Assembly (NCBI GenBank): GCA_002720855.1
Contig: PBIN01000014.1
Coordinates: 841,619-905,618 of the forward strand
Direction of reading: 5' to 3'
DNA from: Rhodospirillaceae bacterium
Lineage (GTDB): Bacteria; Pseudomonadota; Alphaproteobacteria; MPNO01; UBA2964
DNA: 64,000 nt
The position numbers were made by a program, and so were the translations under genes. Below are positions 2,151 to 44,049 of this stretch, in pieces (positions within the stretch are counted from its first letter, which is position 1; the number at the start of each line of letters is the position of its first letter). Below the pieces are notes generated by a model. It did not search any database. It was given only the letters and a program-made list of their open reading frames with translations, and was not told the DNA's origin.

Positions 2151-2862
2151 GGCCTCCACCAGTTCAGAATCAACGTCATCGCGCGTAATTTTAGCAGTGC
2201 TCGCTCTGGGGGTATTTTGCATACTTATCGGAATGGGGACCTGGCAACTGCAGCGATTAGCGTGGAAAGAAGACATAATTGCGCAACGGCTCGCCAAACT
2301 TTCTCTCCCCCCAGTCCAGATTTTAAAACCGAGCCATTCCAATCCGGAGTCCTATAGACGTGTCACCATTGATGGCCGGTTCATGTATGAGAAAGAATTG
2401 TTCGTCGGGCCAAAACCATTTCGCGGACGCCCTGGTTGGCATGTCGTGACACCGTTAAAGCATTCGTCGGGAGAACTCATTCTGGTCGATCGCGGCTGGG
2501 TACCGCAAGAATTGAAATCTGCTGCGAAAAGAAAGAAAGGTCATCAAACGGATTTTGTCTCTGTAGTCGGTGTTGCCAGTTGGCCGCGCAAGTCGGGATA
2601 TTTTGAGCATGAGAATGACCCGAGAAAGGGCCAGTGGTTTCGAGTGGACCCCAAAGCGATGGCCGCCCAAATGAGGATCGAAAAAGTGACGCCGTACTGG
2701 ATCATTTCAGAGTCACTCCCTAAAAACAAAGGTTATCCTATTGGTGGCGGTGGTATAAAAATGCCCGCAAACAATCATTTTCAGTATGCGCTCACTTGGT
2801 ATGGCATGGCGCTGGGTTTAGTGGTGCTTTCGATCGTCTATTGGCGGCAGAGGCGGCGATAG
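2140..2862 (+). CDS. SURF1 family protein, cytochrome oxidase assembly
   Basis: The product is a 240-residue SURF1/Shy1-type protein with the family topology: one membrane span near the N-terminus (about residues 16-36), a large periplasmic domain, and a second span at the C-terminus (about 215-235). Conserved family features include GTWQLQRLAWKE after the first span, VDRGWVPQE in the middle, and the NHFQYALTWYGMAL stretch leading into the last span. SURF1 assists heme a insertion into subunit I. It closes the oxidase cluster and overlaps the DUF983 gene. Confidence 0.93.
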   Translation: MTNEASTSSESTSSRVILAVLALGVFCILIGMGTWQLQRLAWKEDIIAQRLAKLSLPPVQILKPSHSNPESYRRVTIDGRFMYEKELFVGPKPFRGRPGWHVVTPLKHSSGELILVDRGWVPQELKSAAKRKKGHQTDFVSVVGVASWPRKSGYFEHENDPRKGQWFRVDPKAMAAQMRIEKVTPYWIISESLPKNKGYPIGGGGIKMPANNHFQYALTWYGMALGLVVLSIVYWRQRRR

Positions 2863-3776
2863 TGCTAACAGCAACGTTCTGGAAGCGGGCATCCGTCCGC
2901 GGTGCGCTCTGGATGTGTGGCGCGTCGCTCATGATTGCTTTTTCAGCGGCCTGTATTCGAGAGTTGTCGGATACCTATAACACGTTTCAGCTGGTGTTTT
3001 TTCGTAGCGCGGTTGGCTTGCTGCTCCTTTCGCCCTGGATGTTTCGGACAGCAGGCCTTGGCACGCTTTCTACCACCCGGCTGCCTCTCTACATGGTGAG
3101 AACCGCCTTCAGCTATACCGGTATGGTGTGCGTATTTTTCGGGCTTGCGAATATGCCTATCGGTGAGGTCTATGCACTCTTGTTCCTCGTTCCGATGATC
3201 ACCATCGTCATGGCGGTTTTCATTCTGAAAGAAAGAGCAGGTATTGAAGCCTGGCTTGCCTGCGGAGTGGCGTTTATAGGCGCTCTCGTTATTTTGCGGC
3301 CTGGAATTATTGCAATTACCCTTGCGGCGGCCGCGGTGCTAGTAACAGCCATAACCTATGCCGCCACCAATATCTGCATAAAATCTCTGTCACGAACGGA
3401 TTCGCCAGCGCAGATTACATTTTATGGGCAATTGCTCGCTTTGCCGCTTGCTTTGGTCCCCGCACTTTTTGTCTGGAAAACACCGTCTTGGTCTGATTTG
3501 CCGCTAATCTTTGCGCTTGGGACATTGCAACTCCTGGCGGGTTTGTTTCATGCCTATTCCGTCCGGGCAGCAGATGCGCGGGTGGTTCAGCCCTTTAATT
3601 TTGTACGATTGCCCGCAAGTGTTCTGATTGCCTTCATACTATTTTCCGAACTGCCATCACCCTGGACGTGGCTCGGAGCGACACTAATTTTCGCCAGCTC
3701 TTACTACGTTTTGTACAAAGAGGGTGCCAAAAAGGAGGCTGTTAGCGACGGAGAAGGAACTCACGGCCAAGCTTGA
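2862..3776 (+). CDS. DMT superfamily transporter, EamA family
   Basis: The product is about 304 residues with roughly ten hydrophobic spans arranged as two EamA repeats, typical of drug/metabolite exporters. I chose the GTG at 2862, which overlaps the last base of the SURF1 stop codon. An in-frame ATG at 2796 would add 22 residues inside the SURF1 gene that do not look like a natural leader. The C-terminus KEGAKKEAV is a usual cytoplasmic tail. The substrate cannot be read from sequence. It overlaps the convergent nicotinate phosphoribosyltransferase gene by 35 bases. Confidence 0.88.
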   Translation: MLTATFWKRASVRGALWMCGASLMIAFSAACIRELSDTYNTFQLVFFRSAVGLLLLSPWMFRTAGLGTLSTTRLPLYMVRTAFSYTGMVCVFFGLANMPIGEVYALLFLVPMITIVMAVFILKERAGIEAWLACGVAFIGALVILRPGIIAITLAAAAVLVTAITYAATNICIKSLSRTDSPAQITFYGQLLALPLALVPALFVWKTPSWSDLPLIFALGTLQLLAGLFHAYSVRAADARVVQPFNFVRLPASVLIAFILFSELPSPWTWLGATLIFASSYYVLYKEGAKKEAVSDGEGTHGQA

Positions 3777-4923
3777 CCCGTGCCGTCCCGTTATATTCGA
3801 TGATGTCTGCTGTGGCGTAGGTTTCGCTCCACGTCGTAGGGAGATAACTGCCGGTACCGATAACATCCACCGGCGCTTCGGCTTCTGCAAAAAGATGACA
3901 TTTCGCCGGACCAAAGCCACTTGAGGCGACGATTCTCGCGTTCTTATAGCCTTCGCTGTCGAGTACTTCTCTCATCCGCCAAATTGCTGCGGCGGAAACG
4001 CCCGCGCCTACGAGATATGAAAGCTCTGCCTTCGAACGATAGCCCCGGACGACCTCTGGCACGTGCCGTTCAAGGACGGCGTAGGAGGCGGCTGGATCCA
4101 GGCCCTCTATATAACGGCTCCCCGGCGTATCAAGACGGAACGAGAGTCCTCCCTGTTCAACAAGTTCGGGAAATTTCTTGCAGACGGCAAGTGTGTCGGA
4201 AACTTCCTGTCCAAAGTAATCGACCAGAACGGTCATCGGCATCTCAGGAAAGGCCTCCCGAAACATTTCAGCAGCTCTTAATGTGCTGCCCGCATAACCA
4301 ATAAAGGCGTGCGGCATCGTGCCCTTGCCGTCTTCTTCATCAAAGTAATGGGCGGTTGCGTCCGTCGCATTTCCAATGAATCCAATCGCGCCCACTTTCT
4401 TTTTCGCTTTGGCTGAGCCAACGGAGGCCGCGTACGCCATCATTTCTGCCATGCTCGTGCCAGCGCAGTGTCTTGCATCCATAGCCATAAAGGCGACCTT
4501 TGGAAGGTCTGAACACATCGTATAGGCATTGTAGGCTGCAATGCAGGCGGGGCCGAGCTTCTGTAACAGCAGCGTTTCCAAATCAACCAACTGAGAGAAC
4601 GAGCCAGTTACATAGGCAATAGGTTCACCAGCACCGACCCACTTCCCCTCCTTGTATTGCAGGTCGATGTCAAAATCTGTGCTGCGTTCGTCTGCTACGG
4701 CCTGAAGCCAATCGAGTGCAAGGCGAGGAGCAGATATAACAGGACGCCGCATGAACAAAGCGTAGGTTACCTGGGCATCACCAAACTTTGCTACTGCTTC
4801 CTTGCTTCGAGAAAAATACTTGTCCGTCCAATTTTCAATTTCCGTTTGCCGGGTTGGCCAGTTCGATTCACCAGCTTCTTTTGGTGTGGGAGATTTTCCC
4901 TTTGGGTTTACGGATGTTGCCAT
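3742..4923 (-). CDS. Nicotinate phosphoribosyltransferase
   Basis: The product is a 393-residue protein of the nicotinate/quinolinate phosphoribosyltransferase fold. It would convert nicotinate and PRPP to nicotinate mononucleotide in NAD salvage. Visible family features are the central DARHCAGTSMAEMMAYAA segment, GAIGFIGNATDATAHYF, and the late SSGFGPAKCHLF and DVIGTGSYLP stretches that line the phosphate-binding barrel. The N-terminal 30 residues are polar and proline-rich. The gene is monocistronic and convergent with the EamA gene. Confidence 0.85.
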   Translation of the reverse strand: MATSVNPKGKSPTPKEAGESNWPTRQTEIENWTDKYFSRSKEAVAKFGDAQVTYALFMRRPVISAPRLALDWLQAVADERSTDFDIDLQYKEGKWVGAGEPIAYVTGSFSQLVDLETLLLQKLGPACIAAYNAYTMCSDLPKVAFMAMDARHCAGTSMAEMMAYAASVGSAKAKKKVGAIGFIGNATDATAHYFDEEDGKGTMPHAFIGYAGSTLRAAEMFREAFPEMPMTVLVDYFGQEVSDTLAVCKKFPELVEQGGLSFRLDTPGSRYIEGLDPAASYAVLERHVPEVVRGYRSKAELSYLVGAGVSAAAIWRMREVLDSEGYKNARIVASSGFGPAKCHLFAEAEAPVDVIGTGSYLPTTWSETYATADIIEYNGTARVKLGREFLLRR

Positions 4924-38207: not shown

Positions 38208-40001
38208 ATGGGATCTGCAGCAAGTTATAAATCAGATTGGCAATCGATTTTTGCGATTTGCGCCGGGGTAAAACACCTCTTGGTGCCCGCGGTCGCCTCT
38301 GCGGTTTTTGTTTCGGGCTGCGTGGAAGGCTCTGATACCAATCAATTCGCAACCGTCGATGTCGGTAAACAGGCCAACCAAATGGTTGACGGCCTTGAGG
38401 TTGCGTCAGCGTCGGGCAAATACCTTGCGGGACGTTACGCTCGAAGAAGCCGCGATTTTGGAACTGCTGCGGATTATTTGTCCGATGCATTGTCGATAGA
38501 TGCGAGCAATAAAAAAATTCGCCGTCAAACCTTCTTTGCTTTGGTCTCCGGCGGACGAATGACGGAAGCAGCGGTGCTTGCCAAGCAAATCGTCGCTGCC
38601 GATAAGGGCGCTGCGATTGCCAACCTTAGCTTAATTGTAGAGGACGTTGTTGCTGGCAAATACGATGCAGCGGCGAATAGGCTTGAAACAATGCCGCGTC
38701 GCGGAATGAGTACCTTCGCAGCACCACTCCTTCTTTCATGGGTAAAGTCGGCACAGGGAGATATACCTGGAGCAGTCAAATCCTTGGATGCACTTAAAAA
38801 GATTGCTTCGTTCGCTGCATTAAGAAACATGCATGTCGGCTTGATTTATGAACAGGCTGGGAAGGTTGAGTTAGCCGGTCAGGCTCTCAAAAAAGCTACC
38901 GAAGGAACCGGATCGGTCAGAGTTGTAATGGGGTATGGTTATTTTCTCGAGCGGCAGGGACGTATTGCCGAAGCCGAGGCAATTTATAAACAATATATTG
39001 CGAAGAATAACAGTGACGCCCTGGAAGGAACTTTGGAGAGGGTCGCCGCGATAAGACCGCCACCTTCATTCGTTGCCACCGCTCGGGACGGATTGGCAGA
39101 GGTATTTTTCAATCTGGCGGGTACACTTGCCCAAGGGCGCTCATCCGATCTGGCGTTGATATATGGTCAGATGGCGTTGCGGCTCCGCCCAGACTTTCCG
39201 TTAGCGCAACTTTTGCTTGGCGGGTTGATGGAATCGCTATCTCGAAATGCTGAGGCCATCGCGCTTTATGGCAAAGTAGACCCTAAGTCGCCCATGTCGT
39301 GGTCTGCACGATTGCGGCGTGCGTCATCTCTTGATGAGATTGGCAAAACCACGCAAGCGATAGCGATTCTGGAACAAATGGCGGCAGAGCGCAAGGATCG
39401 GTTCGAACCATTGATCCGCATTGGGGATCTCTACCGTTCAAAAAAGAAATTTGAGGAAGCAATAGGTGCCTACGACCGGGCTATCAAGCGAGTTGGTACG
39501 CTAGAGAAAAATCACTGGTCGCTCCTCTATTCGCGAGGCATTGCCTTTGAACGTGCAAAGCGGTGGCAGAACGCGGAGAAAGATTTCCTACAGGCTCTCG
39601 AATTAAGCCCGGAGCAACCATTCGTTCTGAATTATCTCGGCTATTCCTGGGTTGATCAGGGCGTGAAGCTTGAACGAGCAAAAAAGATGATCAGGCGAGC
39701 CGTCGAGCTTCGTCCCAATGACGGATACATTGTCGATAGTCTGGGCTGGGTTCTATATCGTCTCGGAGATTACACAGGCGCGGCCAAGAATTTGGAACGT
39801 GCAGTTGTTTTGAGACCCGAAGATCCGACTATAAATGATCACCTCGGCGATGCTTATTGGCGTGTGGGACGTAAGTTTGAAGCGCGCTTCCAATGGAAAC
39901 GCGCCCTATCGCTGGAGCCTGAAAAAGACCAAATTCCGCTCATCCAGGAAAAGCTCCGTGAGGGCTTAAAAGACAAAAAAGACGGGGACAACCGGAGTTG
40001 A
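38208..40001 (+). CDS. TPR-repeat lipoprotein
   Basis: The product is 597 residues. An N-terminal signal segment ends in the lipobox FVSGC (cysteine near residue 43), so it is probably lipidated. The rest is an array of tetratricopeptide repeats. The clearest are in the C-terminal half: WQNAEKDFLQALELSPEQPFVLNYLGYSW, the next unit with AVELRPNDGYIVDSLGWVL, and AVVLRPEDPTINDHLGDAYWR. Such proteins scaffold envelope complexes, and this type is often next to ispE in alphaproteobacteria. Its stop overlaps the ispE TTG start. Confidence 0.88.
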   Translation: MGSAASYKSDWQSIFAICAGVKHLLVPAVASAVFVSGCVEGSDTNQFATVDVGKQANQMVDGLEVASASGKYLAGRYARRSRDFGTAADYLSDALSIDASNKKIRRQTFFALVSGGRMTEAAVLAKQIVAADKGAAIANLSLIVEDVVAGKYDAAANRLETMPRRGMSTFAAPLLLSWVKSAQGDIPGAVKSLDALKKIASFAALRNMHVGLIYEQAGKVELAGQALKKATEGTGSVRVVMGYGYFLERQGRIAEAEAIYKQYIAKNNSDALEGTLERVAAIRPPPSFVATARDGLAEVFFNLAGTLAQGRSSDLALIYGQMALRLRPDFPLAQLLLGGLMESLSRNAEAIALYGKVDPKSPMSWSARLRRASSLDEIGKTTQAIAILEQMAAERKDRFEPLIRIGDLYRSKKKFEEAIGAYDRAIKRVGTLEKNHWSLLYSRGIAFERAKRWQNAEKDFLQALELSPEQPFVLNYLGYSWVDQGVKLERAKKMIRRAVELRPNDGYIVDSLGWVLYRLGDYTGAAKNLERAVVLRPEDPTINDHLGDAYWRVGRKFEARFQWKRALSLEPEKDQIPLIQEKLREGLKDKKDGDNRS

Positions 40002-40888
40002 CGGAGACACCTGTCGATCCTAGTCCCGAAACGGTATCAATTCACGCGCACGCAAAGATAAATCTATATCTCCATGTTATTGGCCAACGTGATGATGGAT
40101 ATCACGAGCTCGATAGTCTTGTTGGATTTACCGAATTTAGCGATCTTCTAACGGTAGCGAAGAATGCTAACCTAGCACTCGATATAGAAGGGCCATTCGC
40201 TGGTTCTCTCTCCCAAAACGGCGACAACCTTGTACTAACAGCCGCAAAAATGCTTGCCAATGAAGCCGGTATTCAGCCGGAGGCAAAAATTATACTCCAT
40301 AAAAACCTTCCTGTTGCGTCGGGTATCGGCGGTGGTTCCGCTGATGCGGCTGCGGCATTAAAAGCTTTAAATTCTTTTTGGCAGATAGGCCTTTCCGAAG
40401 AAGCTTTGGCAAAGATTGGACTTGAGATTGGTGCCGATGTTCCAGCCTGTCTCAGGAGCAAAACCGCTCGCATGGCCGGAATTGGTGAACAAATTTCCGA
40501 AATTGAAGCAAATCTCGATGTTGGTGTTCTTCTAGTAAATCCTGGAGTGCCTATATCGACTCCAGAGGTTTTCAGAGCCCGGCGAGGCGCATTCTCAGAA
40601 GCAGTCACTGGATTGAATTGGGACGATAAATTTGGCTTGTATGACTTGCTTCTCGGTCTAAAAAACGATTTGCAATCTCCTGCTGTTCAACTGGTGCCTG
40701 AGATCAAATCGGTTCTGGAGGTTTTGCAATCTCTGAAAGATTGTCGTGTTGCAAAATTGTCGGGGAGTGGCGCTACATGCTTCGGACTATTTGACGACAG
40801 CGGTGCGGCGAAGATAGCCGAACAGAAAATCCGAAAATCAAATCCGAGTTGGTGGGTGCAGGCGACGTACTTCGTTTGCGAAAAATAG
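39998..40888 (+). CDS. ispE: 4-diphosphocytidyl-2-C-methyl-D-erythritol kinase
   Basis: The product is a 296-residue GHMP kinase of the MEP isoprenoid pathway. The substrate motif AHAKINLYLHVIGQRDDGYHEL, the ATP-binding LPVASGIGGGSADAAAAL and the late KLSGSGATCFGLF are all intact. The start is TTG within the TPR gene stop (TTGA overlap), preceded by GGAG at very short spacing, suggesting coupling rather than independent initiation. IspH of the same pathway is at 15.6 kb. Confidence 0.96.
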   Translation: MTETPVDPSPETVSIHAHAKINLYLHVIGQRDDGYHELDSLVGFTEFSDLLTVAKNANLALDIEGPFAGSLSQNGDNLVLTAAKMLANEAGIQPEAKIILHKNLPVASGIGGGSADAAAALKALNSFWQIGLSEEALAKIGLEIGADVPACLRSKTARMAGIGEQISEIEANLDVGVLLVNPGVPISTPEVFRARRGAFSEAVTGLNWDDKFGLYDLLLGLKNDLQSPAVQLVPEIKSVLEVLQSLKDCRVAKLSGSGATCFGLFDDSGAAKIAEQKIRKSNPSWWVQATYFVCEK

Positions 40889-40892
40889 AATT

Positions 40893-42451
40893 TTAATTGG
40901 TTGCGGGCGCATTCGCCGGGACTGGCGCCATGGCTCCAACCACTTGCCGCAAATCATTGAGCAATGATGCCGTTGCTTTTCCGGTGACATTTAAACCGGC
41001 AAACCTCTGATACATCTTAATCGCCTCGACCGTATTCTTTCCCATGACGCCATCCGGTTTGCCTGGTGCCAAATCCAGTCGGGCGAGAAGTGACTGGATT
41101 TCCGCCACACCTGCCTTGTTTAGATCGCTGGTCCGATTATTTACAGCCGCCATTCCAGCGGCGGGCGTTGTCGAAGACGCTTTGGCAATCTCTGATTTAG
41201 TTGGTTGGTCCGACGCTACAATTTTTGCACGCTCCAGTTTTTTAGCAGCTTCAGCACTTCCGGCTGCAAGCGCCTTATTAAAATAGGCCGTAGCGGTTTT
41301 GTTGTCCTTTTTGACCCCAAGACCGTGCTCGTGCATTAGCCCCAAACTGTACATTGAATCCGCAAGGCCCTGCGCACTGCTTTTTTTGAACCAGTGAGCC
41401 GCTTGTTTGTAGTTTTTGGGTGTTCCTCTGCCCTGCGCATACAGCGTTCCCAAATTGTGTTGAGCTTTTACATGACCTTTTTGAGCCGCTTTTTGATACA
41501 ACGCGATTGCTTTGCCAGGGTCTTTTGATACGCCTCGGCCCAGCTCGTAAAGTAACGCAAGATTGTACTGTGCCGGGGCAATGCCGCCCTCCGCTGCCTT
41601 TTCCAACCAGACGACGGCATTTTACGGACTCTTTGCAAAACCTTTACCAGCGAGGTGTCGATTTGCCAGTTCGAATTGCGCCGCATTGTTGCCGCGGTTA
41701 GCGAGCTCGGTGAGTTCTTTTGCGCTCAAATTCTCAAGGGATTTGATAACTTTGACATCATCCTCAGTAACCTTTGTCGTCTTTACAGCTGCACTTGAAA
41801 CTGCACCTGAATCTTTTCCGGTTGGCAGGGCTGCTTGTTGTTGCGTCTCGCCAGACGGTTTTGTTGCAGGCGCTATTTTCTTGGCGACCTCGCGTTTGGC
41901 GTCCGTGTCTTTGTTTACGGTATCGAAATTCTGTTTTGAAGCGGCCTGTTGTTGGGACGACGGCGAGACTGCGCGTTGATTTTTATCATATATCCATAAG
42001 CCACCGGCGAGTGCGGCAACAATAGCGCACCCCAACAATCCCATTTGTGCGAAGACAGGTTTTTTGCGTTTTGCAGAAGCGGCAACAACAGTTTCAACGC
42101 TAGAGGTTTGTGGTCTGCCACCCATAGCTTCGTCTGCATCTTGAGGACCGTCTTTTTTCGACCCTTTATCGCGGGCGGATTGCAAAGCCTGTTCGACTTC
42201 GGCGCTAGCCGTACTGGCCGCACGCTCAGATTTTTTTCGTGGTTCGATTTCGTTGTTGAGGAAACCGATTCGGAATCATTCGAATTGTCTGCAGCTCCCG
42301 GACTTAAATCCGACTGTCTTTCTGCACGATTTTTGATTGCACGATCTACCCAGGCACCGATCGTCATTCCATGACGTTTGGCAGCTTCCTTTGCTATCTG
42401 CCGTGCGTCTGGGTCTACTCCCTTTACACTCCAGGGACTCGACTTTGCCAT
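40893..42451 (-). pseudogene. PodJ-like protein with Sel1 repeats and peptidoglycan-binding domain, broken by frameshift and stop
   Basis: Joined across two lesions this would be about 519 residues. The N-terminus (SPWSVKGVDPDARQIAKEAA) is the PodJ-type motif. Then come a polar linker, a membrane span (about MGLLGCAIVAALAGGLWIYD), four or so Sel1 repeats and a C-terminal peptidoglycan-binding domain (SLLARLDLAPGKPDGVMGKNTVEAIKMYQRFAG). The frame changes near an A7 run (T7 at 42231-42237 on the plus strand); one extra A would restore it. A TAA at 41622-41624 interrupts the first Sel1 repeat in frame. Decay or sequence error are both possible. Confidence 0.82.
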
Positions 42452-42641
42452 TTTCCGAACTCCTCCCGCAGAAGACTATACCGGGGTCCCATCACCGTTG
42501 TTAAGAGCAAAATCGGATAGTTATGGTTAACAAATTGTAAATATATCGGAGAGCAACGATTGCGCTAATTCGTGCCTACAAATGAGTGTCACCTAGCAAA
42601 TCAAATGAATATTTTGGGTGGGTGTTTGTCGAAATTGCGTG

Positions 42642-43370
42642 CTAGTCGCGGTTGCGTCGCCACCAACCACCTTGAGACTTTGGCCTTCTATTTGAACCGC
42701 GCCCTTCTTCCATCTTATCGAGACGTTCGGTGATGCGCATTACGGCGCGTTCAACAGGTGCAGTCGAAACACCCTTTTGCGATTTGACCTCTTCCACCTG
42801 AGCGGACAGTTCACTGACCTGTTCAGCGAGCGGTGCAACGGCGGCCGTGGTCTTCCTTTCGGCCTGTTCCACGCGATTGCTCAGTGTCTGAATACTTTCA
42901 AACAAAGCCTGAATGGTTGGTGCCGGTAATGGTGCCTGCCCAGAACCGTAGTTTGTTGCAGGTTGTTCACCAAATCCTCCAGCTTGTTGGGGCGGCTGCT
43001 GCATGCCTGGGTCGTATCCGCTATGACCGCCATTGTTTGGTCCTTGATTGTATTGTTGACCCGGCGCGTATTGTTGTCCCGAATTATAACCTTGTGAGGG
43101 GTTGTATTGTTGTCCCTGATTATATTGTTGACCGGGGTTATATTGTTGACCCGTATTATACTGCTGAGAGGGAGCTTCCTGTTCGCCATTTTGTTTGGCT
43201 GCAGGATTATCCTGCTTTGAACCACTCAATTGCTCTGTAGCGGCAGCACGAATAGTTTGGGTTAGCCAGGAGCCAACAGTAAGTCCCGCGCGACGGGCAG
43301 CAATCTTGGCAGCCTCGCGTGCTTCAGGGTCTACACCCTTAACACTCCAGGGGGATCGATTAACTGCCAT
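42642..43370 (-). CDS. PodJ-motif protein with QQYNxG repeats and coiled coil
   Basis: The product is 242 residues. Residues 7-40 (PWSVKGVDPEAREAAKIAA onward) match the N-termini of the two neighbouring genes and of PodJ. Residues 69-110 are seven tandem hexapeptides QQYNxG, followed by more Gly, Gln, Asn and Pro to about 150. A short coiled coil follows (about 155-205) and the protein ends in a basic tryptophan tail (GGWWRRNRD). No membrane span is seen. I infer a cytoplasmic scaffold or polar protein; no function is proven. Confidence 0.8.
   Translation of the reverse strand: MAVNRSPWSVKGVDPEAREAAKIAARRAGLTVGSWLTQTIRAAATEQLSGSKQDNPAAKQNGEQEAPSQQYNTGQQYNPGQQYNQGQQYNPSQGYNSGQQYAPGQQYNQGPNNGGHSGYDPGMQQPPQQAGGFGEQPATNYGSGQAPLPAPTIQALFESIQTLSNRVEQAERKTTAAVAPLAEQVSELSAQVEEVKSQKGVSTAPVERAVMRITERLDKMEEGRGSNRRPKSQGGWWRRNRD
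43041..43166 (-). repeat. Seven tandem 18-bp units encoding QQYNxG
   Basis: The units encode QQYNTG, QQYNPG, QQYNQG, QQYNPS, QGYNSG, QQYAPG and QQYNQG in that order. The DNA copies are imperfect (TATTGTTGACC-type core on the plus strand) but remain in phase, so selection has kept the reading frame. It is a minisatellite inside a coding region and could vary in copy number. Confidence 0.85.
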
Positions 43371-43513
43371 GAAAAAAAGTCACACTCTTTTGGTACATCA
43401 AACGTGGTATTTCGGGGCGTACTTTCAGCCCTACCTTCGTTTAATAAAGTATAACTTATGGCATAAAGTTAAGAAATTGCAAGCATTTGCGGTATCACCA
43501 AGAAATGAACCAA

Positions 43514-43560
43514 GGTAATATATGGTCATATTACCAAGCGTCAGGTGATATTCGCTGACG
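43514..43560. other. Two adjacent hairpins between the PodJ-motif genes
   Basis: GGTAATAT and ATATTACC (43514-43521 and 43528-43535) form a perfect 8-bp stem. CGTCAG and CTGACG (43539-43544 and 43555-43560) form a 6-bp stem. They lie in a 260-base AT-rich gap that otherwise holds no gene. They may end transcription of the small gene to the right or lie in the leader of the QQYNxG gene, both read leftward. Confidence 0.4.
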
Positions 43561-43630
43561 ACTTTATACCTGCTAAACTCCCGCAATCTGCAATCGAATG
43601 CGGCTTTAGTACTGCATTTGCAGAATGTGG

Positions 43631-43879
43631 CTAGGCGTTACCTGCTGCAGCCCGCATCATCGCTCTTTCTATTGAACTCATGCGGTTGGCAGACACAACA
43701 GAGTCAGACTTTGTTTCTGCTGAATTATCGGCAATTGATTGTTCAAAGCTGTTTAGTTCCCGGATGGCCTCCGAAAGCCATTCGCCGATCAAAATACCTT
43801 CATCGGCCGCACAAGCCTTTGCTGAGGCCCGAGCTTCCGAAGATACGCCTCGTAGACTCCAGATAGGTTTTTCAGACAT
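43631..43879 (-). CDS. Small PodJ-motif protein
   Basis: The product is about 82 residues from MSEKPIWSLRGVSSEARASA; a frame from 43924 adds 15 residues but starts in AT-rich DNA. The N-terminal half repeats the motif W-S-x-[KR]-G-V-x-x-E-A-R-x-x-A-K seen in the next two genes, ending in IGEWLSEAI. The C-terminal half has SSIERAMMRAAAG, similar to the end of the PodJ-motif helix region in the 242-residue neighbour (VERAVMRITERL). There is no other domain. It is the first of three same-strand paralogues. Confidence 0.65.
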   Translation of the reverse strand: MSEKPIWSLRGVSSEARASAKACAADEGILIGEWLSEAIRELNSFEQSIADNSAETKSDSVVSANRMSSIERAMMRAAAGNA

Positions 43880-44049
43880 AGCCAACCGCTGTAACCAACA
43901 AATACCAAGCTCCACTATACACATAACACCCCAAATACTTAACAGTACGTTAATATTTCTTTGCGACGGTCTTTTTTGCCTATTTGAGAACGAATTCGAT
44001 CAGAATCTATTGCGGTAAATTGCAAACACACCTATTTTCCGCATCCCAA

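Follow-up and report, generated by a model that had tools for sequence, protein, structure and literature searches.

PodJ is a textbook polarity factor. In the portions of PMC9684454 and PMC8980812 available to us, it is described as crossing the membrane once and continuing into a periplasmic repeat domain and a peptidoglycan-binding domain, and the available portions of the PodJ literature (PMC9684454, PMC8980812, PMC4287350 and PMC9239152) do not single out its conserved first 40 residues. Here we describe a locus in a 64,000-nucleotide stretch of the genome of a Rhodospirillaceae bacterium (contig PBIN01000014.1, positions 841,619 to 905,618; hereafter the window, with positions counted from its first letter), where three neighbouring minus-strand genes, g1, g2 and g3, have a 37-residue N-terminal domain in common. 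The genes belong to a cassette consisting of a small (S), a middle (M) and a PodJ-like (L) gene, usually in that order, the last encoding a membrane span, Sel1 repeats and a peptidoglycan-binding part. The PodJ-type polar scaffold is a known kind of structure, and the cassette is a new variation on it. Judging by the titles and opening lines of abstracts returned by a literature search, no description of the domain or the cassette was found, and the only match containing both PodJ and ribbon-helix-helix (RHH) concerns MatP.

A preliminary description of the stretch had pointed out that the three genes open alike, and the N-termini that it quoted, their positions and their strand are confirmed. 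Profiles built from any two of the domains recovered the third among 927 open reading frames (ORFs) of the window (g1, E 1.5e-15, 52.6 bits; g2, E 1.9e-16, 55.6 bits; g3, E 4.6e-09, 32.0 bits), while the maximum was 6.9-10.1 bits for any other window ORF and 11.8-15.0 bits for the 46,350 ORFs that had been shuffled. The sharing of the domain by g1, g2 and g3 is thus beyond chance. When the g1 motif was compared with the whole genome, the matches were g1, g2 and g3 themselves and one further match with an E-value of 1. The domain spans residues 5-41 of g1 (42329-42439), 6-42 of g2 (43245-43355) and 5-41 of g3 (43757-43867), all on the minus strand.

The resemblance to PodJ, which had been proposed from the motif alone, extends in g1 to the whole plan of the protein. 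The L gene g1 (40893-42451, minus strand) encodes the N-terminal domain, a putative membrane span (MGLLGCAIVAALAGGLWIY, 41988-42044, with a hydropathy peak at the same place in L083, the intact copy of genome G007), three matched stretches of Sel1 repeats (41240 to approximately 41579; PF08238, E 5.5e-33) and a PG_binding_1 domain (40956-41114; PF01471, E 2.4e-14). By Pfam and hydropathy, the span, the Sel1/TPR repeats and the peptidoglycan-binding domain are found both in the window pieces and in L083, and the same succession of N-terminal domain, single span, repeats and terminal peptidoglycan-binding domain characterizes PodJ of Caulobacter, Agrobacterium and Hyphomonas, as far as the published accounts at hand describe it. 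Furthermore, the domain itself opens ORFs of PodJ architecture in Caulobacter, including a 984-aa ORF of Caulobacter sp. 602-1 (L161) in which Pfam places Sel1 and PG_binding_1 behind it, as well as long, span-containing ORFs in Brevundimonas, Parvibaculum, Bosea, Chelatococcus and others. Unlike PodJ, which is some 1000 residues long, the cassette L is about half that length, at 473-523 aa in the window's family (497 aa in G002, 523 aa in G007 and 473 aa in G009), so that the long cytoplasmic coiled-coil part of PodJ (CC1-6) appears to be largely missing; only about 100 residues separate domain from span in the intact family relatives. The cassette L differs further in being encoded beside ispE together with two other domain-bearing proteins. 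The genome also encodes a PopZ-family protein (PF10691, E 3.7e-24).

Although g1 had been read as one open frame, it is disrupted in this assembly. The domain lies in one frame (41915-42451) and the span, Sel1 repeats and PG_binding part in another, the frame changing between about 42302 and 42218, probably at a run of seven A residues (42231-42237). The Sel1 and PG_binding parts lie, in addition, beyond an in-frame TAA (41624-41622) in the first Sel1 repeat, at a codon for lysine in G002, G003 and G007. Because the part past these lesions is still about 54% identical to G002 in alignment, the lesions are either recent or assembly errors.

The other two genes are smaller. The S gene g3 (43631-43879, minus strand) encodes 82 residues comprising the RHH-like domain described below, a long helix and a C-terminal helix, SSIERAMMRAA, whose motif SSIERAMMR (43652-43678) recurs in S genes elsewhere in the family; S-I-E-R-A-M ends the S proteins of G002, G003, G007, G009, G010 and G011. 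The M gene g2 (42642-43370, minus strand) encodes 242 residues, in which the domain is followed by Q/Y/N/G-rich repeats, a coiled-coil-like region, an ERA helix (APVERAVMRITERLDKMEE, 42705-42761) and a basic aromatic tail, GGWWRRNRD (42645-42671), in place of the GLF.RLFGR-like tail found in most other M proteins. The bodies of the three products had been called completely different; g2 and g3, however, share an [IV]ERA[MV] helix near the C-terminus. The tandem QQYNxG repeats of g2 (43068-43160), with DNA periods of 18 and 36, also occur in G002, G003 and G007 and give the protein a Q/Y/N/G-rich linker that was seen, among the M proteins examined, in the window's genus only. Such a composition is known from phase-separating proteins. 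In G007, the g2 gene has an in-frame stop inside the repeats.

The motif observation is more general than the window alone. The search that the preliminary description called for, with a profile for all carriers of the motif, found the domain in 97 of 387 genomes of the class, a sample that takes in close relatives of the window's genome, with at least two matches in 37 genomes and exactly three in 21; in all 37, counted by hand, the matches listed share one contig and lie within about 3.4 kb of each other. In a sample of the phylum, 54 of 397 genomes carry the domain, 12 of them outside the class, and all five of these 12 that were examined (L217, L218, L219, L220 and L221) encode it in short stand-alone proteins without a cassette. 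Contigs were scanned with two peptide patterns derived from a tight alignment, and the best 80 of 478 confirmed relatives yielded loci that are biased towards PWSVKG-like domains.

Wherever a locus holds at least two domain genes (39 loci), those genes lie on a single strand. An ERA helix is present in the M proteins of 26 of the 30 loci with an M gene (it is missing in G007, L174, L192 and L193), and a basic aromatic tail ends most M proteins. After removal of ten duplicate loci, a convergent ispE directly follows L in 33 of 42 multi-gene loci; five others reach the contig end, and in the four where ispE is absent despite sufficient room (L167, L177, L183 and L192), the order is L then M. In the window, ispE occupies 39998-40888 and the gene for a TPR protein 38208-40001, both on the plus strand, with a tRNA-Gln and a tusA-like gene on the other side of the trio; TPR and ETF-QO genes come next in most loci of sufficient length. 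The cassette locus is orthologous, and the trio is an ancient gene set conserved in many alphaproteobacteria. The suggestion that a shared module heads different bodies can therefore be extended to a conserved, class-wide cassette, whereas its further implication of freely swapped effectors is not borne out, as the order S (or a ParB, see below), M, L beside ispE is largely fixed. Two loci, L197 (6951-9167) and L198 (8084-9394), have a Sel1-type ORF after the M gene in which the head domain was not detected, as if an L gene had lost its head.

In a number of genomes the place of S is taken by a ParB-like gene. The first cassette gene of G042, G211, G124, G348, G033, G384, G077 and G092 matches HTH_ParB at 24.8-114 bits, the match in G092 (24.8 bits) being barely over the cut-off. 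Five of the eight products were examined for HTH_ParB only; the full Pfam search of L143, L053 and L126 found ParB_N and HTH_ParB in all three, with ParB_C over the cut-off in L143, at 22.1 bits and just below the cut-off of 23.8 in L053, and without a match in L126. Thus L143 and L053 combine the three parts of a chromosomal ParB (ParB_C of L053 falling just under the cut-off), but unlike chromosomal ParB they carry a PodJ-type head and branch apart from the canonical proteins. The head is at the N-terminus of the seven module ParBs included in a tree (15.6-40.4 bits), although in one of them, the G077 ORF, whose start is unsure, two copies occupy residues 89-127 (17.4 bits) and residues 340-373 (25.7 bits). 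None of 12 canonical ParBs contains the domain, their scores being below 0 bits where listed. A single branch with 99/96 support, flagged for long branches, separates the seven module ParBs from the 12 canonical ones in a tree from which the canonical ParB of G033 was left out. A second, higher-scoring canonical ParB is encoded elsewhere in seven of the eight genomes, and for G042 only the cassette ParB was found. L053 (G033) also encodes an L-type protein (2466-4646) with tandem domain copies at its N-terminus, the second of them weak. In L175 and L170 (G143 and G118), the cassette shares its contig with the canonical ParB gene, and no more than about 20 kb separates the two.

What fold the domain adopts was approached by modelling. 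AlphaFold2 models of monomers, computed for g2 from residues 1-58 and an alignment of 46 rows, predict an extended strand segment and helices at 15-28 and 32-50 in g2 (mean predicted local distance difference test score, pLDDT, 78.7, highest in the core), and helices at 14-27, 31-65 and 69-79 in g3 (mean pLDDT 83.4), of which the second is long and the third holds SSIERAMMR. Both models have a strand-helix-helix layout, in which the strand, although extended, has no pairing partner in the monomer. In a Foldseek search of the PDB with the g2 domain, ranks 1-14 were taken by chains of TacA2, an Rv0298 antitoxin, MazE, Arc, VapB, NikA and PutA, all of which we take to be RHH proteins. VIA-align likewise returned nearly exclusively RHH chains in its upper rows, with Z up to 6.5 for the g2 domain and up to 6.7 for g3, values below 8, where a score can reflect a mere common arrangement. 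Sub-threshold Pfam matches of the domain were mostly to RHH families, namely PSK_trans_fac (PF07704, E 0.0031 in g1, below its cut-off), FitA-like_RHH, HicB, NikA-like, MatP_C and TacA1; others were RuvA_C, YqfD, PALP and DUF6290, the last presumably an RHH family too. An NCBIfam search with the domain gave nothing informative, and its profile found nothing credible among PDB sequences, the best match (E 0.00037) being to a designed repeat protein that is hit weakly and repeatedly. RHH is the best-supported predicted fold. The domain would share the strand, helix, turn and helix of Arc, CopG, MetJ, VapB, MazE, TacA, the MatP C-terminal domain, ParG and NikA, with G-x-x-x-G-x-W-L-x-x-x-I forming its turn and second helix, and RHH proteins are its best structural matches. 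It differs from the superfamily in lacking a sequence match over a curated cut-off and in its two constant tryptophans, and from RHH repressors in heading membrane-wall scaffolds and ParB. An RHH fold normally works as an intertwined dimer.

The region upstream of the trio offers a further point of comparison. A TTAA-N7-TTAA box, the pattern of a CtrA site, occupies 43939-43953, upstream of g3 and separated from its start by 59 bases; it is the sole one in the window, against 0.88 expected by chance in 64 kb, and a box is found in the equivalent place in G002, G003 and G007. Among 130 de-duplicated loci with at least 100 bases upstream, 15 of 17 boxes fall in the 250 bases preceding the first domain gene (Fisher value 1e-23, which ignores kinship, boxes of close relatives not being independent). 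Four of the 15 are in the window's genus, seven in loci with mostly Caulobacter-type titles (L139, L150, L152, L153, L155, L156 and L158) and four in others. According to the part of PMC4287350 at hand, podJ of C. crescentus has a full CtrA motif (TTAA-N6-TTAA) at -49 of its promoter P1, which sits 120 bp upstream of the gene. The cassette thus resembles podJ in having a CtrA-type box upstream, and the g3-upstream box appears to agree in place with the P1 motif. A CtrA query found no clear orthologue in the window's genome (G000), G002 or G003 (best matches 37%, 35% and 35% identical), whereas it reached 99% in the Caulobacter control and 74% in G009, with a partial match of 66% in the genus member G007; a ChpT search of G000 found none. 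This lack weakens any explanation of the box by CtrA alone; because of it, the box may in this species be a relic, or a site for another protein. The window's genus may be losing the CtrA pathway along with the PodJ-like gene.

How these observations fit together can be put as a model, to which we give an even chance of being right: a shared RHH-type dimerization head would bring its carriers together in a polar scaffold that is anchored in the wall and probably connected to the centromere. The head common to S (or ParB), M and L would serve in dimerization and assembly, with S and M joining, or regulating, the head of L. L would span the inner membrane and hold peptidoglycan through its Sel1 and PG_binding parts, thereby tying the complex to the envelope, where its position is presumably polar, and the coiled coil and basic aromatic tail of M would serve as a bridge. 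The ParB-like protein with the same head in the S position suggests that the cargo docked there is the centromere complex or the nucleoid. At the level of sequence, what is shown is the shared head, the RHH-like models, the fixed cassette, the wall-binding parts of L, the head-ParB fusions and the promoter box; the hetero-assembly, the polar position and the centromere link are inferred. In A. tumefaciens, deletion of podJ causes origins to leave the old pole, as stated in the part of PMC9239152 consulted.

Several observations weigh against this reading. The Foldseek E-values behind the fold are weak (0.61 at best), the VIA-align scores fall in the range noted above, and no Pfam RHH family scored over its cut-off in five window pieces, 20 domains or 46 domains. 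In four of the seven module ParBs the domain is without its ribbon part, the strand with the tryptophan; those of G384, G033 and G077 retain the tryptophan, with acidic residues near it. Many genomes have a solitary PodJ only and some an M gene only, so that the cassette partners are dispensable. Since g1 looks broken in this genome (it is also frameshifted in G003), the full complex may no longer form here. Lastly, the chromatin immunoprecipitation (ChIP) signal of PodJ at A. tumefaciens origins is barely above background, which speaks against direct contact between PodJ and the centromere in that species, and the authors suggest an indirect effect on origins in the part of the paper at hand (PMC9239152).

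If the fold is RHH-like, DNA binding or simple dimerization would be live alternatives to the localization or docking module first proposed. The chief rival, serious if doubtful, is that the head functions as an RHH domain in binding DNA. PodJ-type proteins would in that case hold DNA directly at the envelope, or the S protein would act in the manner of RHH antitoxins, using a palindrome such as TTAAC-N5-GTTAA to repress the operon that encodes it. Besides the fold models, this rival can draw on the g3-upstream box, which is near-palindromic (TTAACGTACTGTTAA) and kept in four genus members, three of them without a clear CtrA, and on the predicted outward-facing strand residues, lysine in 43 and serine in 43 of 44 unique domains of solitary PodJ. 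The latter count is biased for lysine, as solitary PodJ loci were mostly found by the PWSVKG pattern; it was made with 37 unclassed domains left out and a ParB class of five unique domains, fewer than all seven module ParBs, and the orientation of the strand was deduced by analogy with RHH proteins rather than read off the structure of a dimer. The basic residue is, however, missing from 13 of 33 unique S domains, and both the module ParBs without a ribbon and the near-background ChIP signal count against DNA binding as well.

It is possible, though unlikely, that the idea can be taken further, and that the head of PodJ and its partners is an unrecognized RHH domain that grips DNA or a ParB complex. 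In that case L would be a direct tether from peptidoglycan to chromosome and the S/ParB-M-L cassette an ancestral alphaproteobacterial polar centromere anchor, from which the solitary PodJ would have been simplified, the S genes being remnants of a ParB-bearing first gene.

Less probable still is that S and M are ordinary small paralogues with separate minor roles, derived by duplication of the 5' end of podJ, their adjacency reflecting ancestry. The genomes with a solitary PodJ or a solitary M would agree with such an origin, as would the short, variable S sequences and the interrupted g2 of G007, but gene order and strand have been retained over many families, M ends in a conserved helix and tail peculiar to it (26 of 30 loci), and the ParB that replaces S is a specific partner, not a random one. 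That the domain is the head of a toxin-antitoxin-type antitoxin, g3 being a stray one, is highly improbable even though the weak Pfam matches are mostly to antitoxin RHH families (PSK_trans_fac, FitA-like_RHH, HicB and TacA1), since the genes conserved alongside it resemble those for PodJ and ParB, and this reading was dropped as no toxin gene lies beside the cassette, whose flanks are ispE on one side and the tRNA-Gln and tusA-like gene on the other.

For the biology of PodJ, the RHH-like head would provide a structural hypothesis both for how the protein assembles and for how it affects origin position, and the ParB-fused versions name a concrete partner. The compact S-M-L cassette would likewise be a smaller system in which to study the scaffold-mediated link between chromosome and cell wall.

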